Of a stretch of DNA of 64,000 nt, positions 2,478 to 51,607 are shown in pieces. The notes beneath the pieces are model-generated. The model worked only from the letters and a program-made list of their open reading frames with translations. It did no database searches and was not told where the DNA came from. The stretch covers positions 823,765-887,764 of the forward strand of contig CAJIZI010000001.1 in NCBI GenBank assembly GCA_905181885.1, given 5' to 3'. The position numbers were made by a program, and so were the translations under genes. The first letter of the stretch is position 1, and every line of letters begins with the position of its first letter. The stretch is from an uncultured Gammaproteobacteria bacterium (GTDB taxonomy: Bacteria > Pseudomonadota > Gammaproteobacteria > Nitrosococcales > Methylophagaceae).

Positions 2478-2903
2478 ATGTTGTGGGTGAAAGCGTTTCA
2501 CATTATCACTGTAGTAACATGGTTTGCAGCCTTGTTTTATTTGCCACGCTTGTTTGTCTACCACGCGATGTGCGACGATGAGTCGGGTAATGAAAGGTTT
2601 AAAGTGATGGAGCGAAAGTTATATCGGGGAATAATGACTCCGAGTGCGATATTAGTTTTAATACTAGGTCTTTGGCTAATGAGTTTTTATCCACTTGAAG
2701 CTATTTTACAAATGCATTGGTTGCATGCAAAGTTGATACTGGTAACACTACTTTTTGCTTATCACGGCATGTGTGGGCGAATCTTGAGAAACTTTGCTAA
2801 TAATAAGAATCAACGTTCTCATATTTATTACAGGTGGTTTAATGAGTTGCCCGTTATTATTCTGGTAGCGGTCATTATATTAGCAGTGGTAAAGCCATTC
2901 TAA
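2478..2903 (+). CDS. hemJ: HemJ-type protoporphyrinogen IX oxidase
   Basis: Small inner-membrane protein of the HemJ (UPF0093) family, which oxidises protoporphyrinogen IX in haem synthesis in bacteria lacking HemG or HemY. The sequence has about four hydrophobic segments, an N-terminal WVKAFHIITVVTWFA stretch and a YLPRLFVYH motif, plus HAKL, all typical of the family. I chose the ATG at 2478 because a GGGAG ribosome site lies 6-10 bases upstream and the protein then starts like its relatives. An in-frame ATG at 2463 would add five residues. The haem product could serve the cytochrome-like protein at 48987-49751, but that link is only inference. Confidence 0.88.
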   Translation: MLWVKAFHIITVVTWFAALFYLPRLFVYHAMCDDESGNERFKVMERKLYRGIMTPSAILVLILGLWLMSFYPLEAILQMHWLHAKLILVTLLFAYHGMCGRILRNFANNKNQRSHIYYRWFNELPVIILVAVIILAVVKPF

Positions 2904-2918
2904 ATGGCAAAGATATGA

Positions 2919-3495
2919 TTAATTTGAGTACTCAAACATTTTAACTACACGTTGCACACCGGCAGAGTTAGAAGTGATGCCGACAGCACGATCAGATTCT
3001 GATTGATTAACTATACCCATTAGATAAACGACTCCATGTTCTGTAACAACTTTTATGTAGAAAGGGTCTATCTGTCGATCAGATGTGATTTTTGCTTTGA
3101 CTTTAGACGTGATCCAAGCATCACTGCTACGAGAGGGTAAAGAGCTAGGTGCTGCGATAATTAGTTCATTATGAATAGTACGGACTTTGGGGATAACTCG
3201 AACTAGATCGTAAACTTGCTCGCTTAAGCTGTTCTGTTAGAGTTTCACCTGTTATTAGAATTATGCCGTTGTAGCTTGTGACATTAATATGGCTTTGCTC
3301 ATATATATCTTTGTTGTTGAATATGGCTAATGCAGCCTTGAATTCAACACCCTGATCGTCTATCACAGCGCCAGTAGTGCGTCGGTCATGCGCAATTGTG
3401 ACGCCAGTAGCAGCCCCAGTGATAATAGCAGTTGCACACCCCTGTAATAGAACAATAGTGATTAAAACTATGAGTGCAAACTTCGATATTGACAT
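2919..3495 (-). CDS. dolP: BON-domain lipoprotein (DolP/YraP-like), frame broken once
   Basis: Outer-membrane-associated lipoprotein with two BON domains; the E. coli homologue helps maintain outer-membrane integrity. The N-terminus has a hydrophobic signal followed by the lipobox LLQGC, then the first BON domain (NVTSYNGIILITGE). The frame breaks at about 3224-3228, where one surplus A/T base separates it from an intact second BON domain ending ...VQRVVKMFEYSN at the stop 2919-2921. Dropping that one base gives a normal protein of about 190 residues. The apparent 108-residue product stopping at 3169 is therefore an artefact of the shift or a recent mutation. It lies downstream of lpoA, as in many gammaproteobacteria. 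Confidence 0.82.
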
Positions 3496-3568
3496 GATGG
3501 CGTTCCTAAATTAGTGTGTAAGACTATTATCGCTTTCTAAAAACACTTTGGCTACTGTTGTTTGGTAG

Positions 3569-5499
3569 TTATTGTTCTGGGAACGAAGGACCTGCTGAAG
3601 GGTTATCTAAAGCTTTAATTTTACCCCTTACGAAGGTGGCCCATTGTAAACGACGGTTTATATAACCCCTATCGTCAACAGATAACAGACCGGTGGCACC
3701 TTGGTATGTTCATATCTGATGAAAGCCTTAACTGATTTATCTGAGTGGCCAACCGGTAAGCATCTGCACCGAGAGGCGTATAGGCGGATTAGTTGGTTAA
3801 AGGTCGGAGGCTGCTGTTTTCTTATGGCTCGATAAGCCAGATCGTTATGAGCCATTTCGGGAAATAGCCCAAGGGATGTCGTTGATGATAAAGGCCATTT
3901 AAATCGATATCTTGTTGTTTGTTTTTAGCACCAGTATATGCGTGAGAGGTTGCAACAACCGGCAATTGACCTGAGCGGTGAAATTTGAATTGCGGTACAA
4001 GCTGCCTGGCTTTTAGTGGCCGTGCGATTAGAAAAATAATGTCAATATCTTGTCGGCGACGTGGCTCAAAGCCGATTTTTATTGCAGCGGTTAGTGTCCG
4101 CTTTAGAGATTCATATCGTAGTTTGCTCACTCAATGATAGGTCAAAAACTGGAGTAATCACAGAGGAGTAATCATGCTCATCTTCATTGTAAATAGCTTG
4201 GCTCTAGTAACACACCACCTTGACTAAGCCACTGTTTTTTAAAAGCAATGGCAGCGCGTTGGCCCCACTCAGCATTAGGTGAGAACATAACTGCGCGCTT
4301 GTATCCTTTTGCTATTGCATTTTTGGCAGCAGAAATAGCATCATCTTCCGGAGCTAAACCAAATTGGTATAAATTATCAATCTGCTGAGAGTCGGGCAGA
4401 TGATTTAAAGCTATAACGGGTATTGGTAAGTTGGCAGACTGCTGCCAATATTTCTATTTTTGTTTTATCAAGTGGCCCAATGATGATGCTAGCATTAAGC
4501 TTAAGCGCTTTCTCATAAGCAACCTTCACCATACTTATATCATTTTTTATACTTGAATGAGTATTAATAAAGTGTAGTTTGGCACTGGCTTTTCCTGTGT
4601 AGTGCGCAGCAAAAATACCTTGTTTTATTGCTTCAGCAACCTGGGCATAAGGGCCCGACTCTGGGAGTAATATGGCGATACTTTTGGGCTTTTTCGGCAA
4701 TAAGTTAGCAGAAGAAATCACTCCCCTCGTTAGTGGGGGGCGAGGGATAATATAGTTCCGACGGAGAGCGCCGGGTGGTTTGGATAGTTTCGCTCCCAAT
4801 CCTCAATGGCTATAGAGAGGATTTCTGGCTTATCTATATAAGTTTGAATGGTATGAGCGAGCATAAACCAGCCGCTGTCATCAGCAGGTGCGGCCCCGGG
4901 GTTAAACAACTCTAAGGCTCTTAGGTGATAGAGCCATCAAGGACTTCCAGAGCTGTTGTTGGTTTTTACCGCGGCCAAGCTCAGTTAGTAATGGGGCTAA
5001 TTGTATGTGAGTCTTGGCCTTTTCTAGCCAGTTCTCGGGTTTCTTGATATGCACTTGATACGCAGTTCTAAAAAGCGCTTTTTTCTTTTTAGCGGATAAA
5101 TTTTCTGCTTTGTATGAGCTAAGTGAACGCTAAGGCACCCTCATAATTTTGCTGGCTGAATGAAATATTAGCTTCTAAGATATCTTTATAAAAGGCTAAA
5201 GCATCTGTTAGGTGATCGAAGTCAATCATGGCAAGATTAGCTTGCACCTGTTCTATTTGGCCTAACTGCCAGTGAGCTGAAGCAGCCTGTATATATAGCT
5301 GCGTACGATATGTTCCGCGTTTTGTTTCAGCTAACGCTTCATATTGTCGGGCGGCACTAGAAAAATCACCTGATTGAACGGCAATATGTGCTTGTGATTC
5401 GGCTTCCTTATCTTCCGTTTTGAGTGGCGATAATGACTGACAAGCACTCACTGTCAAAGAGAGTGTAGTTAGCAGTAATAAATGGCGCCATGAAGACAT
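3569..5499 (-). pseudogene. lpoA: LpoA, penicillin-binding protein activator, with about ten frameshifts
   Basis: Outer-membrane lipoprotein that stimulates PBP1A. The N-terminus (5499 down to about 5127) has a signal peptide with lipobox TVSAC and TPR-like helices. The C-terminal half is a periplasmic-binding-protein fold, with SIAILLPESGPYAQVAEAIK, GFEPRRRQDIDIIF and GATGLLSVDDRGYI near the stop at 3569-3571. As written it is split into about eleven pieces. I located single-base changes near 5126, 4914-4926, 4735-4740 (G run, one base short), 4438-4441, 4200, 4115, 3891, 3856, 3774 and 3703. All others are one base too many. Undoing them gives one open frame of about 640 codons with no stop, close to family length. 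Either a heavily mis-called region or a decaying gene; I favour the former. Confidence 0.85.
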
Positions 5500-5594
5500 A
5501 ATCTAATATCTAATAATAAATAAGTATGCGAAACATCTTACCTGTTCGCGTATATTACGACCAGAACTTAATGATTAAGAAAAGGTTGGTTTCC

Positions 5595-6443
5595 GTGTCA
5601 AATGTTGAACCAGAGAGTCTTTATATCGTTGCGACCCCAATTGGTAACCTAGCTGATATGTCAGCACGTGCTATTGAGGTTTTAAAAGATGTTGATGTCA
5701 TTGCTGCTGAAGATACTCGGCACAGTGGGCACTTGCTACAACATTATGCAATCAAGACACCAACTGTTTCACTCCATGAACATAACGAACAACAACGCAG
5801 TGAGGTATTGTTATCTCGTTTACAGGCAGGAGAGGCCATTGCACTAATTAGCGACGCTGGAACTCCATTAATTAGTGATCCGGGATATAGATTAGTGTCT
5901 TTAGTCCGTGCTCATGGCATTAATGTTGTGCCTATCCCGGGCTGTTGTGCGCTGGTGGCTGCGCTATCGGCTTCGGGCCTAGCCTCGGACAAATTTTCAT
6001 TTGAAGGTTTCTTACCCTCAAAACAAGCTGCGAGAAAACATACCTTAGAAAAATTAAAAAATGAAACCCGTACGATGATTTTTTATGAAAGCCCACGTCG
6101 CTTGAACAATACACTAAATGATATGGAAAGTGTCTTTGGACGAGAGAGACCTGCGTGTTTAGCAAGAGAGCTCACTAAACTACATGAAACAATTGTTACT
6201 AAGCCATTGGCTGAATTACAAAGCTGGGTTGATAGCGATAGTAATCAACAGCGGGGTGAGTGTGTCGTTTTGGTTGAAGGTAACCGAATCCAACAGGATG
6301 CGAGTGAAGCAGAAGTCGATCGTTTTTTAGCTATATTGCTAGATGACCTTCCAGTAAAGCGTGCAGCTGCTATTACAGCTGCATTGCTATCAGTTAGTAA
6401 AAATAAAGCTTATGAACAGGCATTGAAACTCCAGCAGAAATAA
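5595..6443 (+). CDS. rsmI: 16S rRNA (cytidine1402-2'-O)-methyltransferase
   Basis: Methylates the 2'-hydroxyl of C1402 in the 16S rRNA decoding centre using S-adenosylmethionine. The tetrapyrrole-methylase fold is clear: LYIVATPIGNLADMSARA at the N-terminus, AAEDTRHSG, the SAM-loop ALISDAGTPLISDPGY, PGCCALVAALSASGL, and FYESPRRL. The open frame extends to an ATG at 5526, but homologues begin shortly before LYIVATPIGN. The GTG at 5595, with AAAGG nine bases upstream, gives the usual length of 282 residues. It is divergent from lpoA, as is common. No typical promoter is evident in the very short gap. Confidence 0.93.
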   Translation: MSNVEPESLYIVATPIGNLADMSARAIEVLKDVDVIAAEDTRHSGHLLQHYAIKTPTVSLHEHNEQQRSEVLLSRLQAGEAIALISDAGTPLISDPGYRLVSLVRAHGINVVPIPGCCALVAALSASGLASDKFSFEGFLPSKQAARKHTLEKLKNETRTMIFYESPRRLNNTLNDMESVFGRERPACLARELTKLHETIVTKPLAELQSWVDSDSNQQRGECVVLVEGNRIQQDASEAEVDRFLAILLDDLPVKRAAAITAALLSVSKNKAYEQALKLQQK

Positions 6444-15598: not shown

Positions 15599-16953
15599 CA
15601 GCTATGAGCCGAGCAAAAGCAAACACAAAAGCATATTTGATAATTGGTCTGGGAAAGACAGGATTATCTTGTGCTCGCTTTTTGCTTGAGCAAGGCCATG
15701 CTGTTGCTATGATGGACACACGTAAGAATCCTCCATATATCGACATTGTACAAAATGAGTTACCTGAAGTTTTACTAAATAAAGATGGGTTAAACCTGAA
15801 GTTAATGCTTAAGAGTGATGTAATCGTTTTGAGTCCGGGAGTTGACCCACGTTTACAAGAGATAAAAGCAGCCCGTAGTCATAATATAGAGGTTATCGGG
15901 GATATCGAGCTCTTCGCACGATCTATCAATCAGCCCGTGATAGCAATTACAGGTTCAAATGGAAAGAGTACAGTCACAACGATGCTGACTGAAATGGGAA
16001 GAATGGCAGGTAAGAACATTAAAGTCGGTGGAAACATTGGTATACCGGCCCTAGGCTTGATTGCTGACCCCGAGCCAGACTTTTATATTCTTGAATTATC
16101 AAGTTTTCAATTAGAGACAGTTTCATCATTGAATGCTTATGCGTCTGTTGTATTAAATGTTAGTCCAGATCATCTAGATCGTTATGAGGATATTGAACAA
16201 TATCAAAAGACAAAAGCTAAGGTTTATATCGGTTCTGAAGTCATTGTGGTTAATCGTGATGACAACTTATCGTGTGAATGTGCTGAGGGTTTTCAAAATC
16301 AAACCGGCTTTACCTTGCATAAGCCTATAGGAAATGATTTTGGGGTTGATGAGGAGAGAGGTGAAGTTTATTTAGCTCGAGGTAAGGAGAGATTACTCCC
16401 AATAAGTGATATGCAAGTTATTGGAGAGCATAATATTTCGAATGCATTAGCTGCATTAGCTTTAGGGCATGCAATGCAGTTGCCCATGAAGGCTATGCTA
16501 GAAGCACTAAAGCAATATAGCGGTTTGCCACATCGATGCCAATTAGTCACAGAAAAGAATGGTGTTAAATGGGTTAATGATTCCAAAGCGACAAATGTAG
16601 GTGCAAGTATTGCTGCTATTAAGGGCCTAAGTTGTGGCCGGGATATCGTCTTGATTGCAGGGGGGGTTGCAAAAGGACAAGAATTTTCTGATTTAACACC
16701 AATTTTTGAGACACATCTGAAAAGCCTTTTATTGATTGGGCAGGATGCTAAAGAAATATCAGAAGTAACACCAAGAGATATTCCACAACAAACCGTGCGA
16801 AACATGTCAGATGCTGTAAAAAAAGCGAAAATGATCGCAAAAGAAGGAGATATTGTTTTGTTAGCACCTGCGTGTGCAAGCTTTGATATGTTCGACAACT
16901 ATGAAAAACGTGGCGATGCTTTTATCAATGAGGTAGAGGCTCAATTGTCATGA
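15595..16953 (+). CDS. murD: MurD, UDP-MurNAc-alanine:D-glutamate ligase
   Basis: Cytoplasmic ligase adding D-glutamate to UDP-MurNAc-L-Ala. The Rossmann-like N-terminus has [15 protein letters not shown], the ATP loop is [14 protein letters not shown], and the central motif ELSSFQLE plus [10 protein letters not shown] follow. C-terminal features VNDSKATN and [17 protein letters not shown] are typical. Length 452. Four-base overlaps with mraY and ftsW. An open frame on the opposite strand (16368-16898) is a shadow. Confidence 0.97.
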
Positions 16954-18096
16954 GTAAAATAAATTTAATGTATGAACTTGATGGAAAGTTAATGTTTTCA
17001 GTCTGTACTTTATTATTCATTGGATTAATCATGGTTGGATCAGCGTCAATATCAATTGCCGATGGCAAACTTGGTCAACCATTATTCTATTTTAACCGTC
17101 AGCTAGTTTTTGCAGCTATAGGGATAGCCATTGCAACTGTATTGATGACGATAAGATTATCAGTTTGGCGCCAACTGGCTCCACTATTACTAATTGTGGG
17201 AGTGGGTTTATTAATTTTAGTACTCATACCGGGTGTAGGAAGGGAAGTAAACGGAAGTAGACGATGGTTACCATTCGGTCCCGTAAATATACAGGTCGCT
17301 GAAGTGATTAAATTATTCTCCGTTATTTATGTTGCTGATTATCTTCAGCGCCATCATGGTCAGTTACAAGGGTCATTCTTTAAAGTTATTGGGCCATTAA
17401 TATTACTGGGTATCGCAGCAATACTGCTTTTATTGCAACCAGATATGGGTTCAGTAGTAGTGATTTTTACAACTGTTTTAGCAATGTTGTTTTTAGGTGG
17501 TTCTCGCTTGGATGTATTTGCTGCTTTGATAAGTACTTTTGCAGCATTATTTATGGCTCTAATTTGGTTTGCACCCTATCGGTTAGAGCGTTTACAGACA
17601 TTCATGGACCCATGGCAAGATCCATTTGGTAGTGGTTTCCAACTCACGCAATCTTTAATAGCCTTTGGACGAGGTGATTGGCTAGGTGTTGGACTAGGTA
17701 GCAGTATGCAAAAAATGTTTTATTTACCTGAAGCACACACGGATTTTTTATATTCTATTTTGGCAGAAGAGCTGGGCTTGATAGGGTCATTAAGTGTTCT
17801 AATATTATTCGCCATTTTTATCTGGCGTGCACTAGCTATTGGACGTGCGGCAGAATTATCAGGTCAAGTGTTTGGTTCACAAATTGCGTATGGAATAGGG
17901 ATATGGTTAGGTCTTCAAGCTTGCATTAACATGGGCGTCAATATGGGGGTGTTGCCCACAAAAGGTTTAACACTTCCATTTATGAGTTATGGCGGAAGTA
18001 GTTTATTAATAAGCTGTATCGGAATTGCTTTGTTATTTCCGGGTTGATATAGAGACACGTTTTCCTGAGCAAGCCTCAGTGAGAGTGAAACGCTAA
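16950..18096 (+). CDS. ftsW: FtsW, septal SEDS glycosyltransferase, one surplus base near the 3' end
   Basis: Polytopic SEDS-family polymerase that makes septal glycan strands with FtsI. About ten membrane segments, with GSRRWLPFGPVNIQVAEVIK, the catalytic-region QPDMGS, and FMSYGGSSLL near the C-terminus. The frame runs into a stop at 18045-18047 after IALLFPG. Removing one C from the pair at 18039-18040 gives the family ending LLFRVDIETRFP and a stop at 18094-18096 that overlaps the murG ATG, as expected in this cluster. As written the protein loses only about 17 cytoplasmic residues, so it might still work. Confidence 0.94.
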
Positions 18097-19170
18097 TGAC
18101 AACAATTATGATTATGGCTGGTGGAACAGGTGGACATGTATTTCCTGCATTAGCAGTGGCAGATATATTGACACAGCGTGGAGTAACAGTGACTTGGATG
18201 GGTACTACTTCCGGTATCGAATCTAGACTGGTTCCAGAGGCAGGCTATCCCTTGACTGAAATTAGTGTGCAAGGTTTACGTGGCAATGGAGCAGTGGGTT
18301 GGATACAAGCACCTTTCAAGTTAGCAAAAGCTGTCATTGAAGCTATCGCGGCAATTAAAAAAACAAACGTAGACGTCGTCTTAGGGTTAGGTGGCTTTGC
18401 ATCGGGGCCCGGCGGGGTAGCGGCGTGGTTGTTAAGAAAACCTGTTGTGATTCATGAACAAAATGCTGTCCCTGGTTTAACAAATAAATTGCTTGGGGTT
18501 ATCGCTACTAGAGTACTACAAGGTTTTCCCAACTGCTTTAAAGCATCAATGAAAGCTGAATGGGTTGGCAACCCAGTTAGAACAAGTATAGCAAAAACAG
18601 TAGAGCCAATAAAAAGTGTAGGGATGCCGCAGGATATTAAGCTGTTGGTACTAGGTGGGAGTTTGGGTGCTAAGTCCTTGAATGAGATATTACCGAAGAC
18701 TTTAGCTTTAATAGGCTCTAGCAAAAGTATTACAGTTAGGCATCAATGTGGTCAAAAAAACCTAAAGGACTGCAAGAGAAATTATCAACAAGTTAGTATT
18801 CAAGCTGAAGTAACAGCGTTTATTAGTAATATGGCTGAAGCCTACAGTTGGGCTGATTTAGTTGTATGTAGGAGCTGGTGCTTTGACAATTGCAGAGCTT
18901 TCAGCCGTAGGTGTGGCATCAATACTTGTGCCTTATCCTTATGCTGTGGATGACCACCAGACACATAATGCATCAGCACTATTGAATGTTGGTGCTGCAG
19001 TACTAATCGACGAGGCAGAGCTAGATGAGAAAGTGCTTTCGAATAGAATTATTGAGCTTACATCAAGCAGCGATAACATATTTAATATGGCTGTAGCGGC
19101 TAAAACGCAGGCAAAACTTGAAGCAGCAGTATCAATTGCAGACATCTGTATGGCGGTGAGCCATGGATAA
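18096..19170 (+). CDS. murG: MurG, lipid II-forming GlcNAc transferase, frame broken once
   Basis: Peripheral inner-membrane glycosyltransferase that adds GlcNAc to lipid I. The N-terminal half has [37 protein letters not shown] and [12 protein letters not shown]. The C-terminal donor-binding part has [34 protein letters not shown]. These lie in different frames, joined at 18871-18872, where TGTAGGAGCT has one G too many for the expected CRAGALT. Without that base the gene encodes about 358 residues, the family norm. As written the product lacks the UDP-GlcNAc site, and MurG is essential, so a sequence error is likely. Confidence 0.94.
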
Positions 19171-27327: not shown

Positions 27328-27396
27328 TACGTATTTATTTTAATCTAGTTTCCCGATTGCATTTGGCTCGGCATCAGTACAAGGGTAGTGAACGGT

Positions 27397-30121
27397 ATGG
27401 TAAATAAGTTTTTCGGTAAAGTCTTTGGTAGTAGAAATGAGCGCGTGCTCAAAAAGTTAAAAAAAGTTGTTACCCAAGTAAATGATTTTGAGGCCTCCAT
27501 CGAAAAATTAGACGATAATGCTCTCAAAGAAAAAACTGCAGAATTTCGCCGAGAACTAGCTGATGGAAAAACATTAGAGGAAGTACTACCTGAAGCATTT
27601 TCAGTTGTGCGAGAAGCCGGAAAGCGTGTGCTCAACATGCGTCATTTCGATGTACAGTTAGTAGGTGGTTATGTCCTGAATGAGGGGAAAATTGCAGAGA
27701 TGCGAACTGGTGAAGGTAAAACATTAGTTGCAACATTAGCTGTATATTTGAATGCACTTGAAGGTGAAGGCGTGCATGTAATTACTGTCAACGATTACTT
27801 GGCGCAGCGTGATGCTGCATGGATGAGCCAGTTATATAGTTTTCTGGGGCTAACAACAGGTGTTATTGTGGGCGGGTTGTTACCAGATGAAAGACGTGCA
27901 GCCTATAACTCAGATATTACTTATGGCACTAATAATGAATTTGGTTTCGATTATTTACGAGATAATATGGCTTTCAGCATTGAAGAGAAAGTGCAGCGTA
28001 AATTAAATTTTGCGGTAATTGATGAAGTTGATTCCATCTTAATAGATGAAGCTAGAACACCACTTATTATTTCAGGACCAGCAGAAGATAGTTCTGAACT
28101 GTACGGAAGAATGGATGCTTTGATCCCAAACTTAAGCCAACAAATTGGTGAGGGTGAAGAAGTTGAAACTCCTGGTGATTACACGATTGATGAGAAATCA
28201 AAACAAGTCAATTTTACTGAAGATGGTCATGAGAAAATTGAAAACTTATTAACAGAAGCCGGTATTTTGGCAGAAGATGCTAGCCTATACGATGCAACAA
28301 ATATAGGTTTAATGCATCACGTGACAGCCGCGCTTCGGGCTCATGTATTATTTCAACTAGATGTAGATTATATCGTGCAAGATGACCAAGTCGTAATTGT
28401 TGATGAGTTTACTGGGCGTACGATGCCTGGTCGTAGATGGTCAGAAGGTTTGCATCAAGCGGTTGAAGCAAAAGAAAGCGTCACAATTCAGAATGAAAAC
28501 CAAACTTTAGCTTCAATAACATTCCAAAACTTTTTCCGATTGTATGAAAAACTCTCTGGTATGACAGGTACAGCAGATACTGAAGCGTTTGAGTTACAAT
28601 CTATATATGGCCTTGAAGTTATTGTTATTCCGACACATCGTGAAATGTGCCGCATAGATTCTGCTGATCAAATTTATTTAACTACAAAAGAAAAATACGA
28701 TGCAATTGTCGAAGATATTAAATTATGTATTGAACGACAACAGCCTGTGCTTGTGGGTACATCATCAATCGAAACATCTGAATATCTTCATAGCTTATTG
28801 CAAGAAGAAAAAATACCACATGAAGTTTTGAATGCTAAGTTTCATGAAAAAGAAGCCTATATCATTGCACAAGCAGGCCGGCCTGGCTCAGTAACAATAG
28901 CGACTAATATGGCAGGTCGTGGAACTGATATTGTCCTTGGTGGCAGTCTTGATGCTGAAATGACAGAGCTGTCTGATGATGTGTCAGAAGCTGAAAAGGC
29001 CCTGATTCAACAAGCATGGCAACAGCGCCATAATCGAGTACTAGAGTCTGGAGGTTTGCATATTATTGGTTCAGAGCGTCATGAATCTCGTCGCGTTGAC
29101 AATCAATTGCGTGGTCGTTCTGGACGTCAAGGAGATGCTGGTTCAAGCCGTTTTTATTTATCTCTTGAAGATAACCTTATGCGGATTTTTGCATCGGAGC
29201 GTATGTCAGGCTTAATGCAAAAATTAGGAATGGAAGAGAACGAGGCTATTGAACATCCTTGGGTATCACGTGCAATCGAAAATGCGCAACGCAAAGTTGA
29301 AGGCCATAACTTTGATATTCGTAAGCAAGTGTTAGAGTTCGATGATGTTGCAAATGATCAGCGTAAAGTTGTGTATGAGCAACGTAATGAATTAATGGCA
29401 GCTAAGGATGTGTCTAGTACTATTGTTTCAATGCGTGCTACGGTGGTTGATAATATGATTAGTATTTATATTGCTCCTGGAAGTATTGATGAGCAATGGA
29501 ATATTGCAGGCCTTTCTCCAGCCTTAAAAGAAGAGTTCGGATTAGATGTAGATATTGCATCTTGGTTGCAGGAAGATGAAGACTTACATGAAGAAACACT
29601 GCGTGAAAGAATTGTTACTGAAATTCAAAATCAGGCTGATGCTAAAGAAGCGATGACTGGAGCAGAGTTAATGCGACACTTTGAAAAAGCTATTACCCTT
29701 CAAACATTAGATTCTCAATGGAAAGAACACTTAGCTCAAATGGATTACTTACGTCAAGGTATCAACTTGAGGGGGTATGCTCAAAAAGATCCAAAGCAGG
29801 AGTTTAAACGTGAAGCCTTTAATATGTTCACATCAATGTTAGAGCGTATTAAACATGATGTGGTGTCACTTATTGCACGTGTTGAATTGACGGGCAGAAG
29901 AAGATGTCAAAGCAGTGGAAGAGCGCCGCCGTCAAACTGGTGATATTGAGTTGCAGCACGATCAAGTTGATGGTATGACTGGTAAATCTGAAGGACAAAA
30001 CCATAATATTAAGGAACAGAGTCAGCCGATCGAACGAGAGGGTCGAAAAGTAGGTCGTAATGAACCCTGCCCTTGTGGATCAGGTAAGAAATTCAAACAA
30101 TGTCACGGAGCATTGAATTAA
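27397..30121 (+). CDS. secA: SecA preprotein translocase ATPase, frame broken once near the 3' end
   Basis: Motor that drives proteins through SecYEG. Features: [13 protein letters not shown] (Walker A), [51 protein letters not shown] and [14 protein letters not shown]. At 29892-29894 (ACGGGCAGAAG) one surplus G shifts the frame; without it the sequence reads [20 protein letters not shown] and continues into the C-terminal zinc tail [21 protein letters not shown]. As written the last 60 or so residues, including the SecB/phospholipid-binding tail, are lost. The ATG at 27397 is preferred over the GTG at 27388 because it gives the usual N-terminus and better spacing to AAGGG. The stop overlaps argJ by one base. 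Confidence 0.95.
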
Positions 30122-31370: not shown

Positions 31371-32433
31371 ATGCCTAGTCATCAAATAACTACTTTAAGC
31401 GAATTCCTGCATCATAGCGGTGCAAAATATCGTGTATTCGATATGGGCCGCCGCGTGGCTAAACTGAGTTCAGATCAGTTTTTTAATTTTGAATCTGCTC
31501 AACAAGCGTACCCGTACCCATTACAAAAATCAGCATTATTTGGTGTGGTTTTTTGGAGTCCAACACTACCAGATAAACACTATATTTGGTTTCTTAAGTT
31601 CCCTTTAGATGAACAAGGGCTTCTGATACAAGGAGCCCGAGATGAGTTTTTATGTATGTTATTAGAGTCGTGTTGGAGAGTCTATGCTAGCAGCAACAGG
31701 TAGTGAGGACATCGAAGATGTATTGAATGATAGTCCTTATACTTTTACACCACTTGAGGAAAAGCTAGCAGCTTTTAATGCCAAAGCAAATAAGAGTCTT
31801 GGAAGACAACCTTCAAGTTATTATCACAATGCTTTGAATTACTTTATTGGTGATAAAGAACTGAATAGTTGGCAATCATTAGCGATACAAGGTGTGGCTG
31901 ACGTTGCAGAAAGACTAAATGAGGGTGGAGATACACAACGTCTTATTGAGGCATTGCCAAAAATACCAGAGAGACCCTTTATGGTGTTATGTAGCTTCCT
32001 GGAACACGTCGAACCTACGATTGGTATTGTAGAAACTTTAGCTCAACAGATTGAGTATGAATTGCAACAAAAAGAGCCTAACATCGAGAAGATTTGTGCT
32101 TGCCTTAGAGCAGCATCAAATAGCCCCGTACGTGCTTTGCTTGAACAGATGGTCATTAAAACTCTCAAAGATGATTGTAGTAAAAAGATAGAAATTCTCG
32201 CAGTCATTTCAGGCCGATTATGGCAACTACTAGAAAATAGCGAGATTTGTACATTGTTTGTTGAGCGGTTGGCAGAAAATGATGCCGACTATTCTGGCTT
32301 TAGCCAAGTGTTAGCGGATGCAATGTTTATGCCGGGTCTACGAGAACATATCATGAAAGCACTTCGGTGCCCAAAACGTAGTGATACGCTATCAAAAAGA
32401 GTTGGTGAAATGTTTGGACAAGTCGCGATCTGA
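31371..32433 (+). CDS. DUF3549 family protein of unknown function, frame broken once
   Basis: I recognise this as the DUF3549 family found in Pseudomonas and relatives; no function is established. The N-terminal part (TLSEFLHHSGAKYRVFDMGRRVAKL, PYPLQKSALFGVVFW, IWFLKFPLDEQGL) and the C-terminal part (YTFTPLEEKLAAFNAKANKSLGRQPSSYYHNALNYF, a helical remainder) are in different frames. They join at about 31668-31672, where one surplus base turns LESVGESMLAATG into LESCWRVYASSNR. Without it a protein of about 353 residues results, the family norm. No membrane segment is visible. Confidence 0.8.
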
Positions 32434-40671: not shown

Positions 40672-41995
40672 TTAACTTATATTTTGTTTTATTAACCTAC
40701 GCATATGTACAAACTGTAAGCTCACGGTTAACCAGCTTGCGATAGCTATCGACCACCAAACACCAAAAATGCTTGTTTCGAAAACGACGAGTGAGATGAT
40801 GATGAATATCGAAGGCAGTAAGAGCTGACGAATAAGGTTAAAATACATTGGGATAGCAGCACGTTTCATCCCTTGTAATACGGCACCAGAAACAAAAGAT
40901 AAAACGTATGCAGGTAAGATTAATGCTTCGACTCGCAAATAGCCGACGCCAATATCAATGATGTGGTTATTGTCTGTAAATATAGATATTAGAGGCCTAG
41001 CAAAGGTAAAGATTAAAATACCACCCAAAATCATGAAAATAGTTCCGATACGGACAGAATCATTGGCTACTTCATCCATTCTTTCAAATTGTTTTGCACC
41101 AAAATTGACACTAATTAGTGAGAGTACGGCGATATTAATTCCCACTGTCGGCAACAAGACTAGTTGTTCTATTCTTAAAGCTATTCCTAACCCAGCCACC
41201 GCATTCTCACCGAAGCGAGCTACAGCCGATGTTATAATGATAGAACCTAATGCAATAAAAAACATATTAGTACTAGCAGGTAAAGACTGATTAAAAAGCG
41301 CCTTATATTGCGACCAATCAGGTAATAAATTTGTTAGGGTCAAACTGTTGCCAAGCCTGCTTTGGCGAACCTTAATGGTTAAATAAATTCCACTACCTAA
41401 TTGCGTTAATGCGGTAGCAGCTGCTAAGCCGTAAACACCCCACCCAAAAGTGAACATTAACAAGGGGTCTAGAACTATATTAGCGAAAAAAGCGACGATC
41501 AAACTATTCCGAAAGCTGGTTGTATCACCCAATGAATTGAGTATGCCATTAGCTGTCATTGAATGGGCTGAAAAAACTAACGTTGGCAGAATTATAGAAA
41601 GGTACTTGATGGAGTCTTGAGTATATTCACCCTCAGCTCCCATTAAGCTAAACAAATCAGCCGCGAAAAATAATACAGTAAGACCAATTAAAAGATGCAG
41701 ATAACCAGGCAAAAGAAATTGCTTTGCCAGCAATTTTCTCTGCTAAATCCTCGCGGCCCTGACCATTAGCATTACCCACCAGTGCATTTGTACCCTGGCC
41801 TACACCGATAGATACAGCCATACCCATAAAGTAGATGGGAGCAGCAAGTGAAATTCCTGCCAAAGCGGTTGATGACAGCATACCGGCATAAAAATTATCG
41901 ACAATGTAATACATTGTACTAAAGAACATACCTACACTGGCAGGGATCGCAATCTTTTTAAGTAAGTGTGGTATTGGATCTATAGTGAGGTTCAA
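40672..41995 (-). CDS. MATE-family efflux transporter, frame broken once
   Basis: Polytopic membrane transporter of the multidrug and toxin extrusion family (cation-coupled efflux). The N-terminal part has the MATE pattern KIAIPASVGMFFSTMYYIVDNFYAG and VGQGTNALVGNANGQG. The C-terminal part carries the remaining helices, including SLPASTNMF and GAVLQGMKRA. The two lie in different frames that meet at about 41688-41694. Dropping one A/T there reads ...ASFIGLTVLFF and gives about 440 residues, the family norm. Substrate cannot be told from sequence. Confidence 0.85.
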
Positions 41996-43681: not shown

Positions 43682-43747
43682 ATAGTCTTATTAGATTGGC
43701 AGATATTGATCAGTTGGGAAGTGCATTGTTCGCGTACAATACCTGCC

Positions 43748-45645
43748 ATGATAAAGCTACAAAACCTCTCTGTCCGTCGTGGCATTCGATTACTCTTTGA
43801 ATCGGTTAATTTGACGATTAACCCAGGCAAAAAAGTTGGTTTAACGGGTTCAAATGGTACTGGGAAATCTAGCTTATTCGCTTTATTGCAAGATGAGTTA
43901 GATGCGGACCACGGGAATGTCTCTTTCCCTCTTCATTGGGTAACAGCCCATGTTGCTCAAGAAATACCTGCTACGGACATATCAGCATTAGATTATGCCT
44001 TACAAGGTGATGCTGAATACATTGTATTACAAACTGCATTGAAGATGGCTGAAGCCACACAGGATGGTGCTAAGCAAAGTGAAATACACGAGAAGCTAGT
44101 TGTTATTGATGGTTACACAGCGCGTAGTCGAGCTGGTAAGTTACTACATGGTCTTGGTTTTAAAGCAGAGCAAGAAATAGTACCAGTGGCTAGTTTTTCA
44201 GGTGGTTGGCGGATGCGGTTAAACCTAGCCCAAGCTTTGATGTGTCGATCAGACTTATTATTACTCGACGAACCAACTAATCACTTAGATCTAGAAGCAG
44301 TTTTTTGGCTAGAAGAATGGCTAGGGAATTATCAAGGTACTTTACTCTTAATTTCACATGACCGCGATTTTCTGGATCGGGTGGTGACACAGATCTGTCA
44401 TATTGAACACCAAGGTATTAAGAGCTATACGGGAAACTACTCTGATTTTGAATTAGCACGAGCAGAGCATCTAGCTAATCAACAAGCAGCTCATCAAAAG
44501 CAGCAACGTGAAATTGCCCACATTCGGAGTTATGTGACACGTTTTAAAGCGCAGGCTACAAAAGCCAAGCAAGCACAAAGCCGCATCAAAGCACTTGAAC
44601 GAATGGAATTAATCGCCCCAGCACACGTTGATTCACCATTTCACTTTAAGTTTTTAACACCATCACGCATAACTACACCATTATTGAGCCTAGATAAAAT
44701 TGCTGTCGGATATGGCGATGAAGCTCTACTAACTGGAGTAAAGCTATCCTTAGCACCTGGGGACCGTATTGGTTTACTCGGTCCTAATGGGGCAGGTAAA
44801 TCTACCTTGATTAAATTAATTGCGGGTGTATTACCACCCTTACAAGGTAAACGTAAAGTAGGTAAGGATATCCGTATTGCCTATTTTGCTCAACATCAGT
44901 TAGAGCAACTCTATGTTGAAGATAGTCCGATTAAACATCTACAACGGCTGAATTCTAAAGCGCCCGAGGGAGAGTTACGTAACTTTATTGGCGGCTTTGG
45001 TTTTCATGGTGATGATGCCTTGGCTCCAGTTGGTCCATTTTCTGGTGGTGAAAAAGCTCGTTTAGTATTAGCTTTATTGGTTTATCAAAAACCCGCTGTT
45101 CTATTACTAGATGAGCCAACTAATCATTTGGATTTGGAAATGCGACTAGCGCTAACTATGGCTTTACAAGATTTTGAGGGTGCTTTGATTGTGGTGTCAC
45201 ATGACCGGCATTTACTGCGTACGGTTGCTGATGACTTATGGTTAGTATCAGATGGCCAAGCCAAGATATTTGATGGCGATCTGGATGACTATAAACAGTG
45301 GCTGATGGCTAAAGATAGACCGTTAAAGATAAAATAGATATAGATACAGTACCAAGTAATAGTAAAAAAGAAGATAGGCGAGCAGCTGCTGATGCAAGGC
45401 AACAATTACAACCACTTAGAAATATGGTGAAAAAAGCAGAACAACAAATGACATCTCTACAAAAAGTTATCCGTGATATCGAGCAAGAATTAGCGGAACC
45501 TAGTATTTATCAAGCAGAAGCAAAGCAAAAACTTAAAAATATGTTAACAGAGCAAGCATCAGCAAAGTCAAAATTAGAGCAGGTTGAAATAGATTGGTTA
45601 GAAGCCACGGACAGCCTAGAGCAGAAAACACAACAAGCTAAATAA
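43748..45645 (+). CDS. yheS: ABC-F ATPase, YheS type, frame broken once near the 3' end
   Basis: Two-cassette ABC-F translation factor. Walker A GSNGTGKSS and GPNGAGKST, signatures FSGGWRMR and FSGGEKAR, Walker [11 protein letters not shown] twice, and a linker with KAKQAQSRIKAL. The frame ends at 45337 after RPLKIK. The next frame then carries the YheS C-terminal coiled coil, from KKEDRRAAADARQQLQPLR to about 45645. Here one base appears to be missing at about 45325-45333 (the opposite sign to most breaks in the window). The ATG at 43748 gives the family N-terminus MIKLQNLSVRRG; the longer open frame from 43706 is not needed. Confidence 0.92.
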
Positions 45646-48986: not shown

Positions 48987-49751
48987 TTATTCATCGAGTA
49001 AGGCGTTACGATCATCTTCACGAATACGGGGTAAGATCCACATTTCATAAATCGAAACAATCCACATAAATGCGAAGGATAGTGCCATAGAGCCACCACC
49101 AATAATTACTAGCCATGCAAAATGTGGATTTAATTTTGTTAGCCACCATGATGCAATATCAATAACTAAAAAGATATATGGCATGACGATAACGGTTGAT
49201 TTTAAGGCTTTAGAAATGCCTGAAGCGAGACTGAAAATCAGTCCGACAAACATAAAGATAAAAGCAATACCGAAGAGATGAATGTGAGAGACTCGGGCTA
49301 AGGATGAAAAGCTTATACCAGTGTCAGTTTCCGATACCTTGACTACATCCTCAAACTTAGTGAAGTCTGGAATTGGGAGGCCGGAAGCTGCACTATGGCA
49401 AGCTATGCAATTGGTATCCATTATTTTTCGGATGCCATTATCGTGAAAGGCCTTCTCATTGGCTCCTTTACGAACCCAATTAATTATTTTAAGTCTATCT
49501 TTTTCAGAAGCCATTGCTTTCATCGAACCATTAAGTTGTGATTCGATAACTGATCCTGAACGTTTACCATAGTAACTATAGACAATATCATCTACAGATA
49601 TACCGAGCTTGCCATCCGCCATGCCGTGGGTAAATTGAATCTGTACTAAGGCCATGAGATAACCTATAGCAATAACAATTAAGTATCCAGTAAATAGAGA
49701 TTTAATTGCTGTACCCTGACTGGACAGGTTGATTTTATATGTTGTTGACAT
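48987..49751 (-). CDS. Membrane protein with one c-type haem site, unknown function
   Basis: 254 residues. One membrane helix near the N-terminus (about 18-40), a periplasmic domain of about 110 residues, then three helices (about 157-178, 186-205, 211-236) and an acidic C-terminal tail. The periplasmic part has one covalent-haem motif, CIACH (C115, C118, H119), but not an ordinary compact cytochrome c fold. At the start of the second helix is HIHLFG (H156, H158), whose histidines could also bind a cofactor. I have seen similar uncharacterised proteins in related gammaproteobacteria but know no function. It stands alone, next to no oxidase or cytochrome maturation genes. Confidence 0.7.
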   Translation of the reverse strand: MSTTYKINLSSQGTAIKSLFTGYLIVIAIGYLMALVQIQFTHGMADGKLGISVDDIVYSYYGKRSGSVIESQLNGSMKAMASEKDRLKIINWVRKGANEKAFHDNGIRKIMDTNCIACHSAASGLPIPDFTKFEDVVKVSETDTGISFSSLARVSHIHLFGIAFIFMFVGLIFSLASGISKALKSTVIVMPYIFLVIDIASWWLTKLNPHFAWLVIIGGGSMALSFAFMWIVSIYEMWILPRIREDDRNALLDE

Positions 49752-49973
49752 GGCTATGCTCGCTAATTGAGTTTTTGCTGGAGTTCTTTTCAGACTGATT
49801 ACAAACCAGATGATATTATTAGAGTATTCACATGAATAAGTTATAAGTATTTAACCGTTGTTAAGGTAGTGTAAACTGGTTGTGACGAAAAATAGTTAAA
49901 ATAACAAAAGATAAATATTTAATACTAAAAGTACTGTGACTACAGTCTCAATTTGATGAGAGGTAGTGCCAAT

Positions 49974-50562: not shown

Positions 50563-51607
50563 CTACTCTAATAACGTTAAAAATGCTTTAACTGGCGCGG
50601 GTATACCGAGCTGTAATGCATCTCTTATTGTATACCAGCCGAAAATTTTATTGTTGTCTATCTTCTGGTAGTTATCAGAAGAGTGGACGAGATAGGGGGT
50701 AATGTCCAGTTTGAAGTGTGTAAAAACATGGCTGATTGATGTTTGGTGTTGAATTTCTTCTGGATTAACTTTAAGTTTTTCCTGGCTAAAAGATACGAGA
50801 TTGATAGGGCAATCGAACTCTGGAAAACTCCAAAGCCCACCCCATATTCCGTTGTTAGGCCTTTGTTCAAGTAGAATTTTACCATTATTTGATTGAGCTA
50901 TTAGCCAGTGGCTTTGACGTGTAGGAATTTCTTTTTTAGGCTTTGATGTAGGAAAGAGCTCAGGTGTTCCCAATTGAAATGCTTTGCAATCTTCATGTAA
51001 GGGACATTGTAAACAAAGTGGTTTATTGCGCTTGCAAATAGTCGCGCCAAGATCCATTTGCGCTTGAGTATAATGTGTAATGCGTTTTTCAGGTAGCAAG
51101 CTTTCGGCTATTTTCCACAGCTTCTGTTCTACAGGCTTTTTCCCCGGCCAGCCTGAAATAGCAGTATACCGAGCCAAAACACGTTTTACATTGCCGTCTA
51201 ATATTGGGTGTTTTTGTTGGTGGGCTAGAGCCATTATTGCGCCTGCAGTGGAGCGACCAATACCGGGTAATGCTATTAATTCATCAATCGAGAATGGCAT
51301 TTCTGCTTTGTGTTGTCTGACAAGGATATTAGCCGCTTTATGTAAGTTTCTGGCTCTTGCGTAATAGCCTAAGCCTGCCCACAATGCTAAAATGTCATCG
51401 AGTTTAGCGCTCGCAAGGGCTAGTAATATCGGCGTATTGTGTAATGAAACGCAAATAGTAAGGGATAACAGTTGATACTTGTGTCTGCTGAAGCATGATC
51501 TCGGATAACCAAACATGGTAAGGGCTAATGTCATGTTGCCATGGCAAGTCTTTTCGACCATGAATGTCATACCAGTCTAGCAATCGTTCGTGAAAAGGAG
51601 CAGTCAC
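50563..51607 (-). CDS. mutY: MutY, adenine DNA glycosylase, frame broken once
   Basis: Removes adenine mispaired with 8-oxoguanine. The N-terminal fragment has GRKDLPWQ, PYHVWLSEIMLQQTQVSTVIPYY. The rest, in another frame, has LWAGLGYYARARNLHKAA, the helix-hairpin-helix LPGIGRSTAGAI with GNVKRVLAR, the 4Fe-4S cysteines in CKRNKPLCLQCPLHEDC, and the C-terminal NUDIX-like domain. The frames meet at 51417-51419, where a GGG (CCC on the coding strand) has one base too many; removing it reads YADITSLASAKL and gives about 347 residues, the family norm. The start overlaps the end of the corB-like gene by one base. Confidence 0.94.

Follow-up and report, generated by a model that had tools for sequence, protein, structure and literature searches.

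Whether a reading frame broken many times over records a gene in decay or bases that the organism does not carry is the question raised by lpoA in the 64,000-nucleotide stretch analysed here (the window, C1:823765-887764). The genome to which the window belongs is 99.73% complete, its 1,504,707 bases being distributed over three contigs. Its closest available relative, which we call the sister (G022), is a 1.2-Mb draft of 100 contigs with 84% completeness, collinear with the window over positions 391-54280 at roughly 86-90% identity save for two gaps (18138-19145 and 48996-49888); these gaps and the sequence beyond 54280 are the parts of the window without a sister alignment. Because the sister and 31 other relatives carry an intact lpoA, decay can be tested by comparison.

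The second gap, of about 890 bases, holds most of a minus-strand ORF of 254 amino acids with a CXXCH motif, which from its sequence is perhaps a cytochrome-like gene specific to the present genome.

The lpoA locus and its frame breaks

The gene lies across several frames; when the genome was searched with the LppC-family profile PF04348, four pieces of lpoA matched, three of them above the cut-off, and no second lpoA copy was found (copy number was examined for lpoA and murG). Read from its N-terminus, the protein has a hydrophobic stretch with SAC at its end, a possible lipobox as judged by eye. The LpoA of Escherichia coli is an activator of PBP1A, as described in the accessible part of PMC4111904; the present gene resembles it in matching PF04348 above cut-off, albeit in pieces, and in adjoining a dolP-like gene, and differs from it in that its frame is broken in the present assembly. 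The best NCBIfam model for the dolP-like gene, NF008247, scores 157.3 bits, below its cut-off of 184. Gene order across rsmI, lpoA and the dolP-like gene is conserved in 32/32 relatives, in one of which (L042) 2.5 kb separates rsmI from lpoA, and lpoA matches without internal stops, some of them partial, were obtained in all 28 same-genus genomes searched. In relative L034, some 370 additional bases, which may be a yraN-type gene, lie between lpoA and the dolP-like gene; they are absent here (3495-3570) and in the sister.

Table 1. Genes and intervals discussed in the text, with the frame breaks they carry (window coordinates unless a separate stretch is named).
Feature	Coordinates	Strand	Description
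dolP-like lipoprotein gene	2920..3495	-	One +1 gain at 3219
Dense-gain stretch	3219..5125	-	Reaches from most of lpoA through the intergenic gap into the dolP-like gene, covering its first half
lpoA (LppC family, PF04348)	3569..5499	-	Single copy; about 14 base gains break the frame, otherwise reads intact and constrained
rsmI	5526..6443	+	Intact neighbour, used as control; name from homology and gene order
ftsW	16950..18091	+	+1 at 18036, near the C-terminus
murG	18096..19163	+	Only copy; +1 near 18874, in the C-terminal domain; profile positions 5-263 and 263-352 fall in consecutive frames
secA	27388..30117	+	+1 at 29889, truncating the C-terminal tail relative to the sister
DUF3549 gene	31371..32433	+	+1 at 31668; sister frame open
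MATE-family transporter gene	40672..41995	-	+1 at 41696; sister frame open
ABC-F protein gene	43706..45640	+	+11 at 45329; sister frame open
mutY	50563..51607	-	+1 at 51422; sister frame open
nuoM-like gene	L060:7168 (outside window)		+1
GXGXG-domain gene	L062:19739 (outside window)		+1
hisC	L061:676 (outside window)		-1
Phosphoribosyltransferase gene			Break near gene end
Helicase piece	near contig edge		Two losses

Aligned to the sister LpoA with a low shift penalty in a frameshift-aware alignment, lpoA has 480 identical codons among 636 aligned and no stops. The shifts in this alignment fall near 5124, 5072, 5053, 5037, 4916, 4765, 4710, 4442, 4204, 4122, 3887, 3865, 3774 and 3707; two further shifts, at 3592 and 3570 in the extreme C-terminus, are uncertain. 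The break near 4120 (~4122) is a +4, and the total for the gene comes to about 14 base gains. Six frameshift-aware runs, combining three references with two penalties, gave 10 to 17 shifts each, exclusively gains. When all gaps over 2920-5499 are counted there are 19 gains and 3 losses, the losses in lpoA being one of 9 bases in frame (scored as 2 + 7, 4531-4539) and one of 3 bases at 3596 near the C-terminus, both in variable parts.

A preliminary description of this locus had listed about ten single-base shifts in lpoA, and every one of its ten places is covered by our three-way DNA and frameshift-aware protein alignments. Its number was an undercount: it missed a +1 gain near each of 5065, 5053 and 5034, since the three together total +3. 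The single loss that it placed in a G6 run (~4737) finds no support in the six gains-only runs and is more readily taken as gains, and the site is ambiguous because it lies in a variable linker, where one loss may be mimicked by two gains. That no nonsense codon is left after correction holds against the sister under both penalties; against two distant references at the higher penalty one stop is crossed, because the path thereby avoids paying for a shift. Nor is the damage limited to single-base shifts in lpoA, given the break in the dolP-like gene and the 9-base and 3-base losses.

No direct repeat family of at least 16 bases was found in 2900-5600, where two imperfect inverted pairs are present. 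Run-length error or slippage was considered as a source of the gaps and rejected: 2/15 single-base gaps in the block lie beside an equal base, against 31/77 in non-coding DNA, a difference that is a hint only, being non-significant (P = 0.075).

Constraint on the broken copy

Real early decay, the alternative named in the preliminary description, would mean that lpoA function was lost in this small-genome lineage and that neutral mutations have been accumulating since. The size of the genome (1.50 Mb) is in keeping with this, and several of the other broken genes are possibly dispensable, as lpoA itself can be. A gene in decay should, in comparison with the intact sister, evolve faster at constrained sites, and we examined this leaving out, for dN/dS, branch lengths and residue changes alike, the three codons that flank each break on either side. 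Over 509 codons and 33 sequences, the branch leading to the broken lpoA measures 0.051 at codon positions 1 and 2 and 0.366 at position 3, compared with 0.083 and 0.283 for the sister. The resulting broken-to-sister ratio at positions 1 and 2 is 0.62, within the spread of the control genes, which runs from 0.46 (mraZ) to 2.67 (murE), hemJ apart; short genes give unstable branch lengths, as seen for hemJ and for the third positions of the dolP-like gene.

Pairwise dN/dS for the whole of lpoA is 0.19, a value resembling those of the controls bax (0.25), alr (0.20) and murD (0.21; named from gene order). Split by part, the first 124 codons, which are free of breaks, give 0.27, and the final 245 of the codons compared, which contain many breaks, give 0.11; the middle third, at a fairly high 0.33, exceeds all three controls and counts in favour of decay. 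Amino-acid change is not in excess over the intact sister, with 36 changes assigned to the broken lineage, 42 to the sister and 37 unassignable to either, and none of the 69 columns that are invariant among intact copies (constant over 32 intact sequences, with at least 28 present per column) is altered in the broken lpoA.

The indels themselves also fit neutral accumulation poorly. Non-coding DNA of the lineage has 12.0 substitutions per indel, once alignments below 1000 bits and below 84% identity, or sharing over 200 bases with a better one, are dropped; the ratio is rough because the non-coding counts are unpolarised and BLAST-based. At this ratio 13-17 indels would be accompanied by 157-205 neutral substitutions, producing about 7-9 stops where there are 0 relative to the sister. 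Conversely, the absence of stops and of changes at invariant columns permits about 26 neutral substitutions, equivalent to about 2 indels (probability of at least 13, 4e-7). The spectrum of gaps also departs from that of the non-coding DNA: single-base gaps comprise 15 gains and 0 losses in the block and 41 gains and 36 losses in non-coding DNA (P = 3e-4), and gaps of all sizes 19 and 3 compared with 66 and 65 (P = 0.002). As far as the available text of PMC2916853 goes, bacteria show a strong deletional bias, against which the gains-only single-base gaps stand out, and young bacterial pseudogenes share with lpoA several short frameshifting indels in a single gene; lpoA differs from them in having neither relaxed constraint, nor a stop relative to the sister, nor a deletion bias. 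Decay thus fails on constraint, on residues, on stops relative to the sister and on the gap spectrum, and lpoA does not look like a pseudogene, its constraint being unrelaxed, its stops fewer than its indels would predict and its indel spectrum unlike that of the lineage's non-coding DNA.

Breaks in other genes

Across 111.5 kb of aligned coding DNA, comprising the window and six other stretches, we counted 22 break clusters where the sister ORF is open, a cluster being scored where a net change of frame lies 15 codons or more inside either end of that ORF. Eleven of these lie in the roughly 2.5 kb of lpoA and the dolP-like gene, where 0.25 would be expected at the rate seen in the other 109 kb, bearing out the preliminary description's statement that the breaks are far denser here than elsewhere. 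Both edges of the dense block fall within genes, a position that by rough estimate is not significant and carries no weight in our reading. The remaining eleven occur at about one per 10 kb, and nine of them are gains, the two loss clusters being in hisC and the helicase piece. Overall, gains that add up to +1 modulo 3 make up 17/22 clusters, and single-base gaps in coding DNA outside the block number 14 gains and 8 losses. The reverse search, starting from ORFs that are open here, found no sister-specific breaks, since its 7 clusters were all at sites already counted, and at lpoA the gains are private to the present assembly, the sister and the relatives being open. Both rpoB and rpoC are unbroken, which indicates that error is sparse outside the dense block.

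Bacteria that have peptidoglycan cannot do without MurG, and the murG of this genome carries a break similar to those in lpoA, one that is read from the family profile because murG falls in a gap between sister contigs; no other murG copy was found in the genome. This break is the strongest argument against tolerated real mutations. With murG broken as well, and given the tests above, we consider decay of lpoA improbable.

A real burst of insertions in one strain, too recent for substitutions to have followed, would fit both the unrelaxed constraint alongside many gains and the grouping of those gains within 1.9 kb. We know of no mutational process, however, that would fill a single 1.9-kb stretch with gains mostly of one base and away from base runs, and a burst would not account for how a living cell could carry the broken murG, so that we regard this as very improbable.

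We also searched for a sequence signal common to 23 gain sites (those of the window, L060 and L062). The best 3-mer near these sites has a family-wise P of 0.064; the best 4-mer, GAGC, lies no more than 5 bases from the gain at 5/23 sites where 0.74 are expected. This is marginal on the coding strand (family-wise P of 0.044), the value rising to 0.12 when the two strands are pooled, and may reflect chance or a systematic error context. ARAGORN reported 9 tRNA genes and one tmRNA in eight 20-kb stretches of the genome. Recoding, in which ribosomes meet genuine gains and shift by +1 at many unrelated sites, including in the only murG, such that even an lpoA with some 14 gains yields a working protein, would suit the predominance of net +1 clusters, the constraint across the breaks and the break in an only murG copy, but is scarcely credible when the sister has none of the gains, losses and a +11 also occur, and the 23 sites have no clear common signal.

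Probable origin of the gains

Since the broken lpoA evolves as a functional gene, its breaks are most likely surplus bases from sequencing or assembly and not signs of gene loss. We are confident that they are an artefact of the assembly, and that the organism has lpoA, probably in intact form. The preliminary description had likewise preferred an assembly fault to decay, and the unrelaxed constraint, the gains-only single-base gaps and the +1 in the only murG bear it out; as an account confined to one locus it was incomplete, similar isolated breaks being found elsewhere. Indel error that went uncorrected would leave surplus bases in the assembled sequence, sparsely across the rest of the sampled sequence and densely over 3.2-5.1 kb. 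Such error would arise in sequencing or in assembly, with thin read support at the dense block, the cause proposed in the preliminary description, presumably explaining the cluster, and a consensus built from very few reads, in which a base is preferred to a gap, may be how insertions alone came to survive. LpoA would then perform its usual role, predicted here from sequence, as an outer-membrane lipoprotein stimulating the cell-wall synthase PBP1A.

Several observations sit less easily with an artefact. A gains-only spectrum is unusual for sequencing platforms: the sections of PMC4719071 available to us describe deletions about twice as common as insertions in early Nanopore reads, and PacBio errors that are mainly indels with little homopolymer bias, while PMC12007338, in the part accessible, reports that indels fragment genes in long-read assemblies, deletions exceeding insertions and the insertions not being tied to any one homopolymer. 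The present breaks resemble those of such assemblies (PMC12007338, same part) in being stop-free frameshifts in otherwise intact genes, and differ from them in that every single-base gap of the block is a gain and the gains crowd within 1.9 kb, although the platform used here may be a different one. Outside the block, the two loss clusters and the 14:8 ratio of coding single-base gaps depart from gains only. Several of the broken genes could be dispensable, in secA and ftsW the break lies close to the C-terminus, where a real mutation would be tolerated, and rpoB and rpoC are unbroken; the dN/dS of the middle third of lpoA and the non-significant run-context difference also weigh on this side.

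Our analysis serves chiefly as a caution, and as a worked example of how assembly error can be told from decay without reads: the two can be separated by testing constraint against a single collinear sister, an approach that could be applied to other genomes. Taken at face value, the assembly would make pseudogenes of lpoA, the dolP-like gene, murG, the nuoM-like gene and mutY, and would portray a small-genome bacterium whose envelope is decaying; most likely, the breakage of lpoA is not a real feature of this organism.
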